Assembly: GCA_025057175.1 (NCBI GenBank)
Contig: JANWYE010000008.1
Span: 1 to 39,760 of the forward strand
From: Chloroflexus sp.
GTDB taxonomy: Bacteria > Chloroflexota > Chloroflexia > Chloroflexales > Chloroflexaceae
Length of the DNA stretch: 39,760 nt
Direction of reading: 5' to 3'
In this document: one piece after another, positions 7,330 to 15,059 of the stretch
Layout of the letters: every line of letters begins with the position of its first letter
Position numbering within the stretch: position 1 is the first letter of the stretch
Position numbers and translations under genes: made by a program
The notes under the pieces: model-generated
What the model saw: the letters and a program-made list of their open reading frames with translations, nothing else
The model's database searches: none
Told to the model about the DNA's origin: nothing

Positions 7330-7992
7330 GTGACTGAAACGCAGTTCCCGATTGAGCAGGTGTTAGATACGCTGGAACGCGAACTAGCTAAGTTTACGCC
7401 CCCGCTGATCGACCAAATGGGTGAGGTCAGCCAGACACCTTTCCGCATTTTGATCGCCACTATCTTGAGTCTACGCACCAAAGACACCCTCACTGCCGTA
7501 GTCGCGCCGCGCCTGTTTGCCGCCGCTGATACGCCGGCAGCCATGCTTGAATTAGGCGAAGAGCGGATTGCCGAACTGATCTACCCGGTTGGCTTTTACC
7601 GTGTCAAAGCGCGCCAGATCGTCGCTATTTGCCGGATTTTGTTGGAGAAATACGGCGGCGAGGTGCCATCCGATCTCGAAGAGCTGCTCAAGCTGCCCGG
7701 CGTAGGCCGCAAGACGGCTAATCTCGTAGTGACAGCCGGCTTTGGGTTGCCGGGCATCTGCGTTGACATTCACGTTCACCGTATCTGCAATCGCTGGGGC
7801 TACGTGCAGACCCGCACCCCCGAAGAAACCGAGATGGCGCTGCGGGCCAAATTGCCCCAACGGTATTGGATCTCGATCAACCGGCTGTTGGTCACGCTGG
7901 GCCAAAACATTTGCCATCCCACCTCGCCACGGTGCAGCATCTGCCCGATCCGCGATGTATGCCCGCGCATTGGCGTCACACGCAGCCGGTGA
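7330..7992 (+). CDS. nth: Endonuclease III (DNA glycosylase/AP lyase)
   Basis: A 220-residue base-excision repair enzyme that removes oxidised pyrimidines and nicks at the abasic site. The helix-hairpin-helix LPGVGRKTANLV (residues 122-133) holds the catalytic Lys128, and Asp146 lies in VDIHVHR. The 4Fe-4S cluster ligands are Cys195, Cys202, Cys205 and Cys211 in the exact Cx6Cx2Cx5C spacing. The start is a GTG at 7330 with GGAGG 4 bases ahead; the upstream extension overlaps the lipoprotein gene antisense and is not real. It stands alone between a divergent lipoprotein gene and a convergent transporter gene. Confidence 0.96.
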   Translation: MTETQFPIEQVLDTLERELAKFTPPLIDQMGEVSQTPFRILIATILSLRTKDTLTAVVAPRLFAAADTPAAMLELGEERIAELIYPVGFYRVKARQIVAICRILLEKYGGEVPSDLEELLKLPGVGRKTANLVVTAGFGLPGICVDIHVHRICNRWGYVQTRTPEETEMALRAKLPQRYWISINRLLVTLGQNICHPTSPRCSICPIRDVCPRIGVTRSR

Positions 7993-8142: not shown

Positions 8143-9561
8143 TTAGCTTCGCTTGTGGCGCGCCGCCAGCCGGGCCAGCGTTTCGGCGTGACTGGCTTTG
8201 GTAATTGGGTAGAAAGCGGTCAGAATCATCCCGCAGATTAAGATCACCGTCGGCATTGGCCCAATCAGCAGCCGAATCGCCAGCAACGCGCTTTCCGGCT
8301 GCTGGCCGGGCTGGAGATTCTCGTTAAAGCCGGCAAATTGCAGCGCCAGCCCGACCAAAAACAGGCCCAGCGCCAAACCCATCTTCTGCAACAGCACCAT
8401 AAACCCGTAAAACATCCCTTCGCGGCGCTGGCCAGTCTCTAGCTCATCTAGCTCGATCACATCAGGCATCATGCTCCACGGGATAAGATAAGCGGTGGCA
8501 ACGCCAGCCCCGGCAATCACACCAAGCACGATAGCAAGTGAAATCTGTTCGGGCTGGAGAAAAAAGAGAAACGCTTGCACGCCGATCCAGATCAGACTGC
8601 CGATCATATAGACCGCCTTCTTGCCGATCCGTCGGCTGACCGCGCTCCATACAAACAGGAAGATCAGTGCCGAGCCTTGCACGGCAAAGAGCATAATCGG
8701 GATCAGATCATTGGCGCTGGCAAAGGTCAGGCCAAAGGCGGTAGCCGGGAATTGCGGCACACTGCCGAGCCAAAAGACGATAAAGAAGGTCAACACGCTC
8801 GACGTCACTTGCACCGCCAACCACGAGAACATATAGATACCGACCACAAACAAGAACGGGCGGTTCTTGAACACGTAACGGATTTGGTCGAGCAAGCTGA
8901 GTTCTTCTACGCCGGGTTCCGGCTCGTAGCGTTCGCGGGTGCCGAAGAAGCACCAGAGGAAAGGTACTGCGATCAGCAGCCCAACCACTGCGCCCGACAC
9001 CAGATAGCCGGTCTGTTGATTAGTAAACTGGCCGACGATGATCTGGTGTAAAATCCCGCCCAGCAAACTGCCGCCGATACTGAAGGCGAAGCGGTAGGAA
9101 TTGAGCGCGGTACGCTCATCGTAATCGCGAGTCAGTTCGGGCGTCAGCGCCGTATACGGCACGTTAACGACGGTAAAGGCGGTATCGAAGAGTAGGGCAA
9201 TAACGAGGTAGTAAATAAACTTGCCGGTGACATCAAACGGCGGCACCACCCACTGCAAAAAGAAGAGCAGACCGAACGGCGCAGCGCCGAAGAGCAGCCA
9301 TGGCCGCCGCCGGCCCCAGCGGGTTTGGGTCTTATCGGTCAGCCAACCGATAATCGGATCGTTGATTGAGTCCCAAATTTTTACCACCAGAAGGATAGTG
9401 CCGGCCAAACCGGGTGGCAGGCCGGCAATGGTCGTGAGAAAGTAAAGTTGGAAGAATGAAGCGATGATGGTAGCAATGGCCGGGCCGAGATCACCGGCGC
9501 CGAAGGCCAGACGGGTTGCGAGCGGCAGACGCTCTGAGGATGCCGACGTCGTGACGGCCAT
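8143..9561 (-). CDS. MFS transporter of the glycoside-pentoside-hexuronide:cation symporter family
   Basis: A 472-residue, 12-helix inner-membrane symporter. The start region LATRLAFGAGDLGPAI, the loop WDSINDPIIGWLTDKTQTRWGRRRPWLL, and ALTPELTRDYDERTALNSYR are hallmarks of the GPH family (MelB, XynP, YicJ). Asp residues in the IND-P-I-IGW motif bind the coupling cation in MelB. Substrate is probably a glycoside, but this cannot be read from sequence. The ATG at 9561 has AGGAG 9 bases upstream. No glycosidase gene is next to it; the gene stands alone and is divergent from sbtA. Confidence 0.9.
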   Translation of the reverse strand: MAVTTSASSERLPLATRLAFGAGDLGPAIATIIASFFQLYFLTTIAGLPPGLAGTILLVVKIWDSINDPIIGWLTDKTQTRWGRRRPWLLFGAAPFGLLFFLQWVVPPFDVTGKFIYYLVIALLFDTAFTVVNVPYTALTPELTRDYDERTALNSYRFAFSIGGSLLGGILHQIIVGQFTNQQTGYLVSGAVVGLLIAVPFLWCFFGTRERYEPEPGVEELSLLDQIRYVFKNRPFLFVVGIYMFSWLAVQVTSSVLTFFIVFWLGSVPQFPATAFGLTFASANDLIPIMLFAVQGSALIFLFVWSAVSRRIGKKAVYMIGSLIWIGVQAFLFFLQPEQISLAIVLGVIAGAGVATAYLIPWSMMPDVIELDELETGQRREGMFYGFMVLLQKMGLALGLFLVGLALQFAGFNENLQPGQQPESALLAIRLLIGPMPTVILICGMILTAFYPITKASHAETLARLAARHKRS

Positions 9562-9684
9562 AAGAATCAACTCCTGATTTGCAGAACAGCGAACGATAAC
9601 CGGTATTGTAACACTGTCGGCGCCGTTACGCGAGATGGTAGGATATAAGTCACAAGGGAAAGCCCGCTTGCACAGGGGAATGGT

Positions 9685-10659
9685 ATGGCTATTCTGGAAC
9701 TGATGCAGATCAATCTGCTTTCGCCGATGGTATTGGCATTTGGGCTAGGCATTATCGCCACATTGGTGCATAGCGATCTGAAATTACCTGATGAACTGTA
9801 CACCACCTTATCGATTTACTTACTGCTGGCGATCGGCCTCAAAGGCGGCATTGCGCTGGCCCAAACGAGTTTGGCCGCCTTCTGGGCACCGGCGCTTGCG
9901 ACACTCCTGCTTGGATTGATCATTCCCCTCGTCGCTTATGCCATTGCCCGCCGCATAGGGAAGTTAAGCGTTGCCGACGCGGCGGCGCTCGCCGCGCACT
10001 ATGGCTCGGTGTCGGCAGTAACTTTTGCCGCCGCGCAGACCTTTCTTGACACGATTGGGATTCGCTACGAAGGATTTATGCCGGCGCTAGTAGCGATTCT
10101 GGAAGTTCCGGCGATTGTGATCGCGCTCTTGATCGCCCAGATGGCTGGCGGGCAACAAGGCGGCGACTGGCGCGAAGCGGTGCGCGAACTGCTAACCAGT
10201 AAGAGCATTTTGCTGCTCGTTGGGGGCATGGTGATCGGTTGGCTGGCCGGCCCGCGTGGCGGCAAAGAGGTAGCGCCGTTGTTCGTCGATCTGTTTAAGG
10301 GTGCGCTAACCTTCTTTTTGCTTGAACTAGGAATGGTAGCAGCCCGGCGTTTTCGTGATCTGCCCACTGCCGGCTTGTTTCTGCTTGGTTTTGCGATTAT
10401 CATGCCGATTATCAACGGCATACTCGGTGTCTGGTTCGGCCATCTTGCCGGTCTCTCGCTCGGTGGCAGCACCATCTTGGGTGTCTTAGCCGCCAGCGCT
10501 TCGTATATTGCCGCACCGGCAGCAGTGCGCATCGCCTTGCCGCAGGCCAATCCCGGATTCTACTTGACGGCGGCGCTCGGCATCACCTTCCCGTTTAACC
10601 TTGCGCTTGGGCTGCCGTTGTATTACACGTTGGCAACGTGGATAACCGGCGGAGCATAG
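9685..10659 (+). CDS. sbtA: Sodium-dependent bicarbonate transporter SbtA
   Basis: A 324-residue integral membrane protein of the SbtA family (formerly DUF897). The two inverted five-helix halves are visible: LLSPMVLAFGLGIIATL, SIYLLLAIGLKGG and AAHYGSVSAVTF in the first, and the corresponding helices with AASASYIAAPAAVR in the second. The conserved S-x-S-x-x-F segment in the first half and ASASYIAAPAA in the second are the substrate and sodium sites in cyanobacterial SbtA. It is followed 19 bases later by an SbtB-type P-II protein, which makes the assignment firm. GGGGAATGGT precedes the ATG. In a Chloroflexus-like host it could supply bicarbonate to acetyl-CoA and propionyl-CoA carboxylases (inference). 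Confidence 0.93.
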   Translation: MAILELMQINLLSPMVLAFGLGIIATLVHSDLKLPDELYTTLSIYLLLAIGLKGGIALAQTSLAAFWAPALATLLLGLIIPLVAYAIARRIGKLSVADAAALAAHYGSVSAVTFAAAQTFLDTIGIRYEGFMPALVAILEVPAIVIALLIAQMAGGQQGGDWREAVRELLTSKSILLLVGGMVIGWLAGPRGGKEVAPLFVDLFKGALTFFLLELGMVAARRFRDLPTAGLFLLGFAIIMPIINGILGVWFGHLAGLSLGGSTILGVLAASASYIAAPAAVRIALPQANPGFYLTAALGITFPFNLALGLPLYYTLATWITGGA

Positions 10660-10678
10660 GCGTAGAAAGGGCGACGAT

Positions 10679-10990
10679 ATGGAATTGACGACGGTCAAAT
10701 TGGTCACTATCATCGCCGAAGCGGTGCTGGAAGAGCGCCTTTTGCACGATCTGCGCCAACTCGGCGCACGCGGTTATACTGTCGGCGCTGTGCGCGGCGA
10801 GGGGACCCGCGGTGTCCACGCTAGCGAGTGGGAGGGAAAGAGCTTGCGGATTGAAACGCTGGTTGCGCCTGACGTAGCCGAGCGGATTTTGCAGCATCTG
10901 GCGGCAACCTACTTTCCGCACTTTGCCGTGATCGCGTACATGGCCGATGTGCAGGTGGTGCGGGGCGAGAAGTTTCGTGGGAAGCAATGA
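10679..10990 (+). CDS. sbtB: P-II-like regulator SbtB of the bicarbonate transporter
   Basis: A 103-residue ferredoxin-like P-II family protein. In cyanobacteria SbtB is a trimer that binds adenine nucleotides including cyclic AMP and plugs SbtA. Here KLVTIIAEAVLEERLLHDLRQLGARGYTVG forms the first beta-alpha-beta unit, the region RGEGTRGVHASEWEGK corresponds to the T-loop, and a second unit ends in AVIAYMADVQVVRGEKF. It lacks the C-terminal pair of cysteines that makes some cyanobacterial SbtB redox-responsive. Between sbtA and the GNAT gene, whose ATG overlaps its TGA. Confidence 0.9.
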   Translation: MELTTVKLVTIIAEAVLEERLLHDLRQLGARGYTVGAVRGEGTRGVHASEWEGKSLRIETLVAPDVAERILQHLAATYFPHFAVIAYMADVQVVRGEKFRGKQ

Positions 10991-11877
10991 ATGTTCAGCT
11001 CCGTGAGCTATCACCGGCTGATTGCGCTCAATTGGTATCACTGACTCAACGTAGCCTCAGCGATCCGGTCGATGACCGGTTGATCAGGCGTTTGTTGGCT
11101 GCCGAACCGGATGCGCGGCCAGAGCTGCATTTAGCGGCGTGGCGTAACGGGGAATTGCTGGGAGCAGCGCTAGGGAGCGTGCGCCGGCATGATGAGCTGT
11201 TGGTAGGGGGGCCGCGTTTGTTGGTGGTTGACCCGGCGTGGCAACGCCAAGGGCTTGGCGCATACCTGCTGAATGAATTGGAACAACGGCTGCAAGCGAT
11301 TGGCGTTCACGAGCTGCGGGTTGGCAATCTGGCCCCCAATTATCTCTGGCCGGGTGTGCCGGAGACGAATCGCGCGATGCAGGCGTTGCTCGCCAAACAA
11401 GAGTACGAATTGGCCGGGGAAACGCTCAATATGACGGTTGACCTCAATGGACGGGATTGGTTGGCCGGCATCAATCTCAAACGGTGGAGCATCCGGCGCG
11501 CCCGTTATGGCGAGACTGAGCTAGCCGCGTGGGCCGGTGAGCGTTGGGGCGTGGCGTGGCAATGGGAAGCAGCGCAAGCAGTGACCACCGATCCGCCTAC
11601 GGCGCTAGTTGCCGAACGCGATGGCGAGTACGGCGGATTTGCCTGCTGGGATGTGAGCGGGTTATGGGGCACCTTTGGGCCAACCGGCGTTGATGAAGCC
11701 TTGCAAGGCCATGGCCTTGGCCGGGCGCTGCTCTGCGCCGCGCTGGCCGCTATGGCAAGCGCCGGCTATCGCCAGATCGAGATTGGCTGGGTCGGGCCAC
11801 AGGAATTCTACACCCGTGTCGCCAACGCGCAGCCCGGAAGAATCTGCCTGCTGTATCGCAAACCAGTTCTCGGCTAG
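10987..11877 (+). CDS. Tandem GNAT-family N-acetyltransferase
   Basis: A 296-residue protein with two acetyltransferase folds. The first has the acetyl-CoA motif as LLVVDPAWQRQGLGAYLLNELE (near residue 85), followed by RVGNLAPNYLWPGVP. The second, more degenerate, has EALQGHGLGRALLCAALAAM near residue 240 and ends in QIEIGWVGPQEFYTR-V. The ATG overlaps the sbtB stop (ATGA), indicating translational coupling. Its acceptor is unknown; the position raises the possibility that it modifies the transporter, its regulator or a metabolite linked to bicarbonate use, but this is speculation. Its TAG and that of the convergent gene share the palindrome CTAG. Confidence 0.85.
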   Translation: MNVQLRELSPADCAQLVSLTQRSLSDPVDDRLIRRLLAAEPDARPELHLAAWRNGELLGAALGSVRRHDELLVGGPRLLVVDPAWQRQGLGAYLLNELEQRLQAIGVHELRVGNLAPNYLWPGVPETNRAMQALLAKQEYELAGETLNMTVDLNGRDWLAGINLKRWSIRRARYGETELAAWAGERWGVAWQWEAAQAVTTDPPTALVAERDGEYGGFACWDVSGLWGTFGPTGVDEALQGHGLGRALLCAALAAMASAGYRQIEIGWVGPQEFYTRVANAQPGRICLLYRKPVLG

Positions 11878-12899
11878 CCAGCCCGATCGAGCGCAATCTT
11901 CCACAGCGCCAGCCCTAGCATCTGCGGATCGTGGCGGATCGTATCGGCCTTGTTCCACAACTCACGCGGGCTGGGATCGGATTCGGCCAACTCGCGCACA
12001 AGCGGCTCGACGCCAAGCGCCCGGATCGCCTGCCGATCGGCCTCAGTCACCACGAGCGGATGCAAACCGGCAGCGCTGTAGCGAGCCGCCACCGCCGGAT
12101 GCAACGCATGAGCATCGTTTATCAGCGCTACATCGAGCACGCCAGGACCGAGCACTTCCACCAAGCGCGCCACGTGATCGGCAATTGTCATGCCATCGGT
12201 CTGACCGGGCTGTACGGTGGTATTGCAGACAAAAACCACAGTGGCCGGCGTGGCCCGCAACGCCTCAACCACTCCCGCAAAGCAGAGGGTCGCTAAAAGC
12301 GAAGTGTAGAAGCTCCCCGGCCCGATCACAACCAGATCGGCGGCAGCGATAGCCGCCAGCGCCGGCGGATACGCCGCTGCCGGCGGATCAAGGAATAACC
12401 GGCGAATTGGCGGTTTGCCGAGCGCGCGCACCGCCGCCTCCTCGACCACGATCCGACCATCGGCCAACTCAGCGCACAAGCGAGTATTGGCGGTTGACAC
12501 CGGCAATACCTGTTCAGGGCAACCGAGCATCTGGCGAGCGGTCGCCACCGCTGCAGCAAAATCACCCTCCATCTGGGCCAAACCACCCAACAACAGATTG
12601 CCCACCGCCATGCCATCGAGCAAAGGCAGCGCCGCGCTACGCAACCGGTACTGCATCAAACGAGCCAATGGGCCGTCGGGTTCGGCGGCCAGCGTCGCCA
12701 ACAGATTGCGCAGATCGCCGGGGGCAGGAATATCAGCAATCATCCGGGCCGCGCCGGTGCTCCGCCCCGAATCGGTAACGGCGATCACTGCCGCGCGCTC
12801 GCCAAAAAAGGGCCGCGCGCCCAGCAATACCTGCGCACTGCCGCCGCCGCCACCGAGGGCGACGAGGCGGGGGGAAGAGGCGCCAGAGAAGTTGGACAT
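11874..12899 (-). CDS. YvcK/CofD-like protein (gluconeogenesis factor family)
   Basis: A 341-residue Rossmann-type protein related to YvcK, which binds UDP-sugars and supports cell-wall synthesis during gluconeogenic growth, and to the F420 enzyme CofD. Visible: LVALGGGGGSAQVLLGAR at the N-terminus, PAPGDLRNLLATLA, LDGMAVGNLLLGGL, the FLDPPAAAYPPALAAIAAADLVVIGPGSFYTSLLATL block and VFVCNTTVQPGQTDGM. The YvcK motif usually written VADDGGSSG is VTDSGRSTG here, so the protein is divergent. No F420 genes are nearby, which favours YvcK. The ATG at 12899 has GGAG 7 bases upstream. It is convergent with the GNAT gene and divergent from the methyltransferase gene. Confidence 0.85.
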   Translation of the reverse strand: MSNFSGASSPRLVALGGGGGSAQVLLGARPFFGERAAVIAVTDSGRSTGAARMIADIPAPGDLRNLLATLAAEPDGPLARLMQYRLRSAALPLLDGMAVGNLLLGGLAQMEGDFAAAVATARQMLGCPEQVLPVSTANTRLCAELADGRIVVEEAAVRALGKPPIRRLFLDPPAAAYPPALAAIAAADLVVIGPGSFYTSLLATLCFAGVVEALRATPATVVFVCNTTVQPGQTDGMTIADHVARLVEVLGPGVLDVALINDAHALHPAVAARYSAAGLHPLVVTEADRQAIRALGVEPLVRELAESDPSPRELWNKADTIRHDPQMLGLALWKIALDRAG

Positions 12900-12920
12900 A
12901 GAATACTCCACGCACAGGGC

Positions 12921-12990: not shown

Positions 12991-13995
12991 ATGAGCTATC
13001 ATCCAACCTTCATTGACCTATTCGCTGGCATTGGCGGCATCAGATTAGCCTTTGAACGAGCGGGAGCAAAATGTGTCTTCTCTTCTGAATGGGATAAGAT
13101 GGCCCGCCGTACATACGAAGCCAATTTTGGTGACACACCAGAAGGTGATATTACCCAAATACCAGCAGAAAAAATTCCGGATCATGATATACTCACTGCC
13201 GGTTTTCCTTGCCAGCCATTCAGCATTGCCGGAGTCACAAAACACAATGCTCTTGGCAATGCGCACGGCTTTGCCCATACCACACAGGGAACGTTGTTTT
13301 TCGATGTCGCTCGGATTATTGAGCGCAAACGCCCACGAGCGTTTTTGTTGGAAAACGTCAAGAATTTGATAAGCCATGATCGAGGAAGAACATTTCGCAT
13401 CATTTATGAAACTCTTACTGAAGAACTAGGATATAGTGTCTATTACAAAGTGATTGATGCTCGCTTGCTCGTACCACAACACCGCGAACGAATTTATATT
13501 GTGGGATTTTCTGAACCTATTGCGTTTGAATTTCCCACCATTCCTGATCGAAAGCCTAAACTCCGCGACATCCTTGAAGAACATGTTGATCCCAAATACA
13601 CACTTACCGATCACTTATGGAATTACCTCCAGCAATATGCCGAAAAGCACCGCACCAAAGGCAACGGGTTCGGCTTTGGGCTAGCCAATCTTGATCAAGT
13701 TACCCGTACCTTGAGCGCCCGCTATTACAAAGACGGCTCCGAAATCTTGATCCCACAAGAAGGCAAAAACCCCCGCCGTCTCACACCACGTGAATGTGCG
13801 CGCTTGATGGGATTTCCAGACAGCTTTAAGATTGTCTGTAGCGATACCAGTGCATACCGGCAGTTTGGCAATTCTGTGGTCGTGCCGATTGTTGAACTCA
13901 TTGCCCAAGAGATGATGAAAGCTTTACTTCATCCTTCACCAAAGCGCGAGCAAGCTTACAACCTGCCCTTGTTTGAATTATGCAAACTAAGATGA
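12991..13995 (+). CDS. DNA (cytosine-5)-methyltransferase, type II restriction-modification
   Basis: A 334-residue C5-cytosine methyltransferase. Motifs in order: [20 protein letters not shown] (residues 7-25, SAM binding); [10 protein letters not shown] (71-78, catalytic Cys74); VI, ENVKNL (121-126); [15 protein letters not shown] (163-173); the target-recognition region about 190-265; [32 protein letters not shown] (289-300). The recognition site cannot be read from sequence. Start ATG at 12991 with only a weak GGATT. It overlaps the nuclease gene downstream, forming a type II pair. Base composition and codon choice are clearly more AT-rich than the neighbours, so horizontal transfer is likely. 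Confidence 0.95.
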
Positions 13996-15059
13996 TTACC
14001 TCCCATCACAAGGACAATCGTCAAATGCCGTTCAATCTTCCAATTAAAGACGCAATCACATATCTAGAGCGCGTGATGGTAAACAATAAGGCGCGTGGCA
14101 TGATTGCTGAAATTGAATTAGAAAATCTTTTAACTTCATCAAAGAATGCGCAAAAACATCTTTCAGGAGCTTGGATTATTTCACCAAACACGAAGCAATT
14201 CTACCAATACCGCTACGCTATTTTCGTCCTTCCCCAAGTTTACAGCGACGATCAAGAATTAGCTGCAGAGGTTGCCAAGTGGAACAAGGACAGAGGGTTT
14301 CAGGCCTTGGCAACATTTCTCTATGATAGCGGAATAGGTGTCATTGCTACTGGAGCGATCGGTTCATCAATCAATATTGATATTGATCAACTGCGATGGC
14401 AGAATTATCTTTACACTAGGGAACAACTTACCCTACAAAACAATCTGTTTAAGTGTTGGCCTGCGCGCGGGCGTGGTTTTCGTAGTCGCGGTTGGAATGA
14501 TGATGTAAAGCAACGATTGGAGCAAGTAGGTGAAATCCAGCTTACAGCGCTTACGCTACGACAGGCATTTTATTACAGCTACCTCAAACAGCAACTGCGC
14601 AAATCACTAGCCGATCCGTATGATATAGACCTGTTTATTGCCGGTTTTCGCGGCAACGTGTTACCGGTTGAGGTCAAAGAGAAGAGTCCAACTGATCGCG
14701 GCGATTTTGGCCTTGATGCCGGTCGCATATTGATGATGCTACGACTGTGCATTGTAACGCAAAGTAATGGCATGTATTTAATCCGTCAAGTAAACAACGA
14801 TGCACAAAGAAGTTTTGTTGAATGGCGTTACACTTTACTATCCGATATTATTATGGGTTGTAGCTGGAACTTGCAAGCTGGCGGTCGCGGAATGCTCGGC
14901 GGGATGACGCAAACCGTGATGCTATCCAACGATCTCTTCAAAACTTTTGATCCCGATATGCTTACGGAAGATTGGTTACAGCAGCACAGTGATTTGACGG
15001 CTTCAGTTCGCGAGTTGGCCTACGCTTTTGCCGAAAAACTATCAGACTTTCTGCCGTAG
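13980..15059 (+). CDS. Probable type II restriction endonuclease (PD-(D/E)xK)
   Basis: A protein of up to 359 residues that I cannot place in a named restriction-enzyme family. Near residues 212-233 it has DPYDIDLF, 14 residues, then VEVKEKS; Asp217, Glu231 and Lys233 fit the PD-(D/E)xK metal site of restriction nucleases. The gene overlaps the methyltransferase gene and shares its AT-rich composition, which makes a cognate nuclease the best reading. The start is uncertain: ATG at 13980, an ATGA overlap at 13992, or ATG at 14025, which has AAGGA 10 bases ahead. No controller protein or Vsr endonuclease gene accompanies it. Confidence 0.8.

Follow-up and report, generated by a model that had tools for sequence, protein, structure and literature searches.

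The sbtA-sbtB gene pair of a Chloroflexus draft genome (G000, 82% complete), from a photosynthetic bacterium of hot springs, probably encodes a bicarbonate symporter with its PII-like regulator. The tandem GNAT acetyltransferase gene behind the pair is probably a lineage-variable passenger of amino-sugar type that has no part in regulating SbtA or SbtB. SbtA was already known from autotrophs that use the 3-hydroxypropionate (HP) cycle; what is new in the alignments is that no sampled non-cyanobacterial SbtA retains Tyr140 or Ser327 of the cyanobacterial transporter and that the SbtB T-loop is shorter by five residues. The two positions offer a concrete residue test of whether annotated non-cyanobacterial bicarbonate permeases handle bicarbonate in the same way, and the pattern of presumed bicarbonate import without beta-carbonic anhydrase is extended from two published HP-cycle genomes to all eight Chloroflexus genomes examined. 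The analysis also removes, as unsupported, a tempting link between acetylation and carbon uptake, and it places an Asp-less tandem GNAT subfamily in the company of murein and amino-sugar recycling genes in three phyla.

Organization of the locus

The features of the locus are listed in Table 1, with positions given in the window, that is, the whole stretch of 39,760 nucleotides that was analysed. A spacing of 19 bp separates sbtA from sbtB, and the ATGA overlap between sbtB and the GNAT gene suggests translational coupling. Gene order and overlap recur in C. islandicus (G206) and in a Chloroflexota MAG (G274), with protein identities of 83-94%, and the three-gene arrangement is therefore not a product of chance. 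An earlier sequence-only reading of this DNA had described the same arrangement, which the coordinates, the Pfam matches and the recurrence in G206 and G274 all bear out. NCBIfam contained no model scoring above its cut-off for SbtA, SbtB or the GNAT protein. The promoter-like match at 10685 falls within sbtB and is no better than expected by chance, and the function of the neighbouring MFS_2 gene is, as far as tested, unrelated to sbtA.

Table 1. Features of the sbtA-sbtB-GNAT locus and its flanking genes
Feature	Position	Strand	Description and evidence
MFS_2 sugar/cation-type transporter gene	8143-9570	-	MFS_2 356 bits; divergent from sbtA, conserved neighbour
sbtA	9685-10659	+	324 aa; putative Na+-dependent bicarbonate-type transporter, non-cyanobacterial Sbt_1 branch; Sbt_1 404 bits, PDB 7cye E 4e-30
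sbtB	10679-10990	+	103 aa; PII-like, short T-loop, zero Cys; P-II 78 bits, PDB 2cz4 E 2e-34, 6mm2/6wue among matches
ATGA overlap, sbtB stop/GNAT start	10987-10990	+	Read from sequence
Tandem GNAT acetyltransferase, GlmA-like, Asp-less	10987-11877	+	296 aa; two GNAT stretches (Pfam), model and fold search
cofD/yvcK-like gene	11874-12911	-	CofD 231 bits; convergent with operon, conserved locus end

SbtA and SbtB

The match of the window SbtA to the Sbt_1 profile is full-length (positions 1-307 of 308), and, as in the cyanobacterial system (Synechocystis slr1512-slr1513; PDB 7cye, 7cyf), the Sbt_1 transporter gene is followed by one for a PII-like protein. Residue mapping onto Synechocystis SbtA showed that Ser114, Ser324 and parts of the Na+ site (Gly111, Ala320 and Ser322) are kept. 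In the numbering of the window protein Ser110 and Ser273 are kept, whereas Val136, Ala276 and Tyr274 stand in place of Tyr140, Ser327 and Asp325. Two of the four residues that contact HCO3- in the cyanobacterial pocket (Ser114, Tyr140, Ser324 and Ser327) are thus replaced, and the protein was consequently filed under the Sbt_1 superfamily rather than with SbtA of cyanobacterial type. Neither Tyr140 nor Ser327 occurs in any of the 42 aligned Chloroflexota sequences or in those from Cereibacter, Anoxybacillus, Arthrobacter and Haliscomenobacter; the Synechocystis pocket set is retained by two cyanobacterial plasmid proteins in the same alignment. The Cereibacter gene, whose product has nearly the same pocket signature as the window SbtA, lies two genes from cbbLS, with cbbQ also adjoining.

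The second protein is assigned to SbtB by its PII-type sequence, by the position of its gene beside sbtA and by the SbtB structures 6mm2 and 6wue among its PDB matches. It contains no cysteine, so the C-terminal CGPxGC redox loop is absent, and the sequence-only reading was right that the redox cysteine pair is lacking. This motif is conserved in some SbtB homologs (PMC8352866) and, being confined to some, does not define SbtB. Nor is the Cys-less window protein special in this respect, since the C-terminal pair is also missing from Pseudanabaena SbtB and from the aligned part of Cyanobium SbtB (6mm2). In addition to lacking the pair, Chloroflexus SbtB differs from the cyanobacterial proteins in its T-loop, which aligns as five residues shorter than that of Synechocystis SbtB. 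The Synechocystis T-loop enters a cleft on the cytoplasmic side of SbtA (PMC8352866), and because that loop is five residues longer, the gating of SbtA by the Chloroflexus protein may differ in detail. The closest solved structure is Thermus thermophilus TTHA0516 (PDB 2cz4, E 2e-34), which aligns without gaps over 99 residues and has an identical short T-loop length, but which is named a hypothetical protein in the PDB and whose function is not described in the papers found.

Inorganic carbon supply in the genus

All eight Chloroflexus genomes contained sbtA and none contained beta-carbonic anhydrase. The host draft genome has four carboxyltransferase-domain matches and, as a further difference from the cyanobacterial system, no RuBisCO match; a RuBisCO large-subunit match was absent from seven of the eight genomes. 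The sole RuBisCO-large-domain match in the genus (G134:C1:404560-405297, 107 bits) is probably a RuBisCO-like protein. The MC_hydratase profile, a marker of the 3-hydroxypropionate bi-cycle, was matched in all seven other Chloroflexus genomes, most of them weakly, and its absence from the 82%-complete draft is read as incompleteness. These genomes resemble the HP-cycle Chloroflexota of an earlier survey, which recorded dissolved inorganic carbon (DIC) transporters, SbtA among them, and no carbonic anhydrase for two HP-cycle genomes (PMC10880623); SbtB is unmentioned in the text of that survey and the GNAT protein is outside its scope. The sequence-only reading had placed SbtAB in a non-cyanobacterial carbon fixer, which stands, and had proposed that it supplies bicarbonate to carboxylases, which is plausible from the counts given above; the part of its proposal that gave the acetyltransferase a share in control does not stand.

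An anticorrelation of beta-carbonic anhydrase with sbtA across the whole family was considered and set aside. Fisher's test gave p 0.008 with Chloroflexus and 0.22 without it, ignoring kinship and counting a sub-cut-off carbonic anhydrase match in G403 as present, and the pattern was relied on within the genus only. In several Chloroflexaceae (L086, L087, L091 and L092) no recognisable sbtB lies beside sbtA and the homologue is on another contig (in G222, C177 versus C12), and the two genes thus do not form an operon in every genome. A second sbtA copy in G166 (C1:4809988-4810913) was matched in two pieces, one with an internal TGA stop, and is apparently a decayed paralogue.

Distribution, fold and neighbourhoods of the tandem GNAT protein

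Presence and absence across the genus and the family rule out the idea that the GNAT gene is a conserved third member of the sbtAB operon. The sbtA and sbtB genes lie beside the divergent MFS_2 gene in all eight Chloroflexus genomes, with the convergent cofD/yvcK gene on the other side in seven; only three genomes (G000, G206 and G274) have the GNAT gene in the space that separates sbtB from cofD. The gene was found nowhere in the remaining five (G118 and G238 among them), all of which have intact sbtAB, and no relocated copy was detected. Where cofD follows in the species that lack the gene, the interval after sbtB is at most ~320 bp, and no GNAT remnants were found there by tblastn (E 1e-4). 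In the family survey 25 of 41 genomes had an sbtA match and four had the GNAT gene beside it, the fourth being OHK40 (G413), the only case outside Chloroflexus, in which the protein is 50% identical and its gene begins ~120 bp after sbtB. The sequence-only reading had itself named a lack of conservation next to sbtAB as grounds against its proposal, and the gene is not conserved there. A tree of SbtA, SbtB and the MFS protein grouped the three GNAT-bearing Chloroflexus (support 0.54, weak) against the other five (0.71, weak), and one ancestral presence with losses explains the history about equally well as two separate gains. Within the three genomes dN/dS was 0.11-0.17 for the GNAT gene and 0.03-0.07 for sbtA and sbtB, showing that the former is under purifying selection, though looser than that on the latter two.

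An AlphaFold model of the GNAT protein, built from six sequences (pLDDT 85.5, pTM 0.80), had as its best matches the glucosamine N-acetyltransferase GlmA of Clostridium acetobutylicum (5kf1 and the mutants D287N and Y297F) and the corresponding region of fungal RmNag (4zm6). Foldseek E values against 4zm6, 5kga and 5kf1 were ~1e-17 and VIA-align Z scores ~26 over 286 residues, compared with 22 for the next family, and sequence-profile searches ranked the relatives in the same way. The predicted full-length tandem fold is therefore closest to 5kf1 and 4zm6. Likeness to GlmA (5kf1/5kga/5kgh) and RmNag extends to Trp288, which is Trp268 in the window protein, and to the active-site Tyr297, which is Tyr275 and invariant in the alignment. 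The active-site Asp287 (Asp834 in RmNag), in contrast, is Gly267, identity is ~20%, and the gene lies behind sbtAB. Owing to the missing Asp, the protein is described as GlmA-like and is not filed as GlmA. The Asp-less motif GWVGP is common to the window protein and its Oscillochloris and actinomycete relatives, and the structural model together with the relatives' neighbourhoods points to an Asp-less GlmA-like subfamily with amino-sugar chemistry.

Amino-sugar or murein recycling is the commoner setting of the GNAT relatives over three phyla. The Oscillochloris RM1_1_4 gene begins at 7620, 6 bp after nagA (which ends at 7613), and closes an operon of two ABC sugar permeases, a Gfo/Idh oxidoreductase, AnmK, MurQ, a NagK-like kinase and NagA; the contig ends 89 bp further on. 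In Nonomuraea and Sphaerisporangium the relative follows ABC transporter genes (of oligopeptide type in Nonomuraea) and precedes MurQ, and the Nonomuraea locus also holds genes for a NamZ exo-N-acetylmuramidase and a protein of the beta-lactamase family. Among Rhizobiaceae, Rhizobium and Shinella have a relative with a single domain, which lies before beta-N-acetylhexosaminidase. OHK40 has the Oscillochloris amino-sugar operon (first permease 87% identical) without a GNAT gene after nagA, and carries its GNAT gene behind sbtAB on another contig, from which it follows that in this family the gene has moved from one neighbourhood to another. In Chloroflexus neither AnmK nor MurQ gave a match above the curated cut-offs, leaving the GNAT protein without obvious recycling partners there. 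As a separate observation, the OHK40 amino-sugar operon (L118:10354-12727) is convergent with a cofD/yvcK gene 63% identical to that of the window, the orthologue of the gene that faces sbtAB, with or without GNAT, in Chloroflexus.

Proposed function and alternative explanations

In the favoured reading, SbtA, as a member of the non-cyanobacterial Sbt_1 branch, would bring in HCO3- by Na+-dependent symport and hand it to biotin carboxylases in a genus without beta-carbonic anhydrase. SbtB, judged by its fold and gene pairing, probably binds SbtA on its cytoplasmic side and gates transport according to adenine nucleotides, and would do so with a shorter T-loop and no redox switch. The GNAT protein, presumably co-translated with SbtAB by way of the ATGA overlap, would act on a small substrate of amino-sugar or muropeptide type. 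The replaced Tyr140 and Ser327 contacts make the substrate of SbtA less than certain. Bicarbonate is the best guess because of the Cereibacter member beside cbbLS and cbbQ, the constant presence of sbtA with no beta-carbonic anhydrase in Chloroflexus, and the rescue of carbonic-anhydrase-less E. coli by two Thiomicrospira pelophila Sbt proteins, which indicates DIC transport (PMC12628692). These same three points weigh against the idea, raised by the loss of both contacts throughout the branch, that SbtA carries a different small anion, or bicarbonate through a different pocket, with SbtB then sensing a signal other than inorganic carbon; the T. pelophila point does so by analogy. That idea, which we consider unlikely, is favoured by the uniformity of the pocket substitutions in 42 Chloroflexota and four other non-cyanobacterial sequences, by the mere ~10-40% of transport left in Synechocystis SbtA when Ser114, Tyr140, Ser324 or Ser327 is changed to Ala (PMC8352866), and by plasmid-borne sbtA genes in organisms that are not known to be autotrophic, such as Arthrobacter and Haliscomenobacter.

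For the GNAT gene, the passenger reading has to accommodate the recurrence of the sbtB-GNAT adjacency outside Chloroflexus, in OHK40 of another genus, a recurrence not required of a chance passenger. Lineage-specific control of bicarbonate uptake, by acetylation of SbtB, SbtA or another protein, would explain this adjacency, the retention of the ATGA overlap in three Chloroflexus genomes and the purifying selection on the gene. It is nevertheless very improbable, as five of the eight Chloroflexus genomes have intact sbtAB without the gene, the best structural relatives of the modelled protein are glucosamine acetyltransferases, and the loci that hold its relatives in three phyla are of amino-sugar or murein type and contain no sbtAB. 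What speaks for acetyl control of SbtAB comes down to adjacency, and it is not supported; the new control layer suggested by the sequence-only reading gives way to amino-sugar recycling, to which the structure and neighbourhoods of the relatives point. A possible history, though one we hold doubtful, is that the gene is the remnant of an amino-sugar operon that once faced cofD and was later replaced by sbtAB. The OHK40 operon does converge on the cofD orthologue as sbtAB does in Chloroflexus, and GNAT ends the same operon in Oscillochloris, but the OHK40 GNAT gene is already behind sbtAB, on a different contig and away from cofD, and the gene after GNAT in Oscillochloris is unseen because the contig stops. 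Hardly likely either is a broader proposal, in which non-cyanobacterial SbtA-SbtB is a distinct type of transporter and regulator to which a small number of Chloroflexaceae have joined an amino-sugar acetyltransferase, linking bicarbonate entry with cell-wall-sugar or acetyl-CoA status; if true, the rebuilt SbtA pocket and the shortened SbtB T-loop would go with a different function. A symporter and regulator pair for bicarbonate with an amino-sugar-type passenger remains the preferred explanation.

A methyltransferase gene downstream

Beyond cofD, a lower-GC stretch of the window (12991-15059) encodes a C-5 cytosine DNA methyltransferase (PF00145, 318 bits), with DrmMII and type II methyltransferase as its best PADLOC matches. 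The methyltransferase gene is overlapped by a 359-aa ORF that matched nothing in Pfam or PADLOC, and the two may form a type II restriction-modification pair in which the nuclease is of an undescribed kind.
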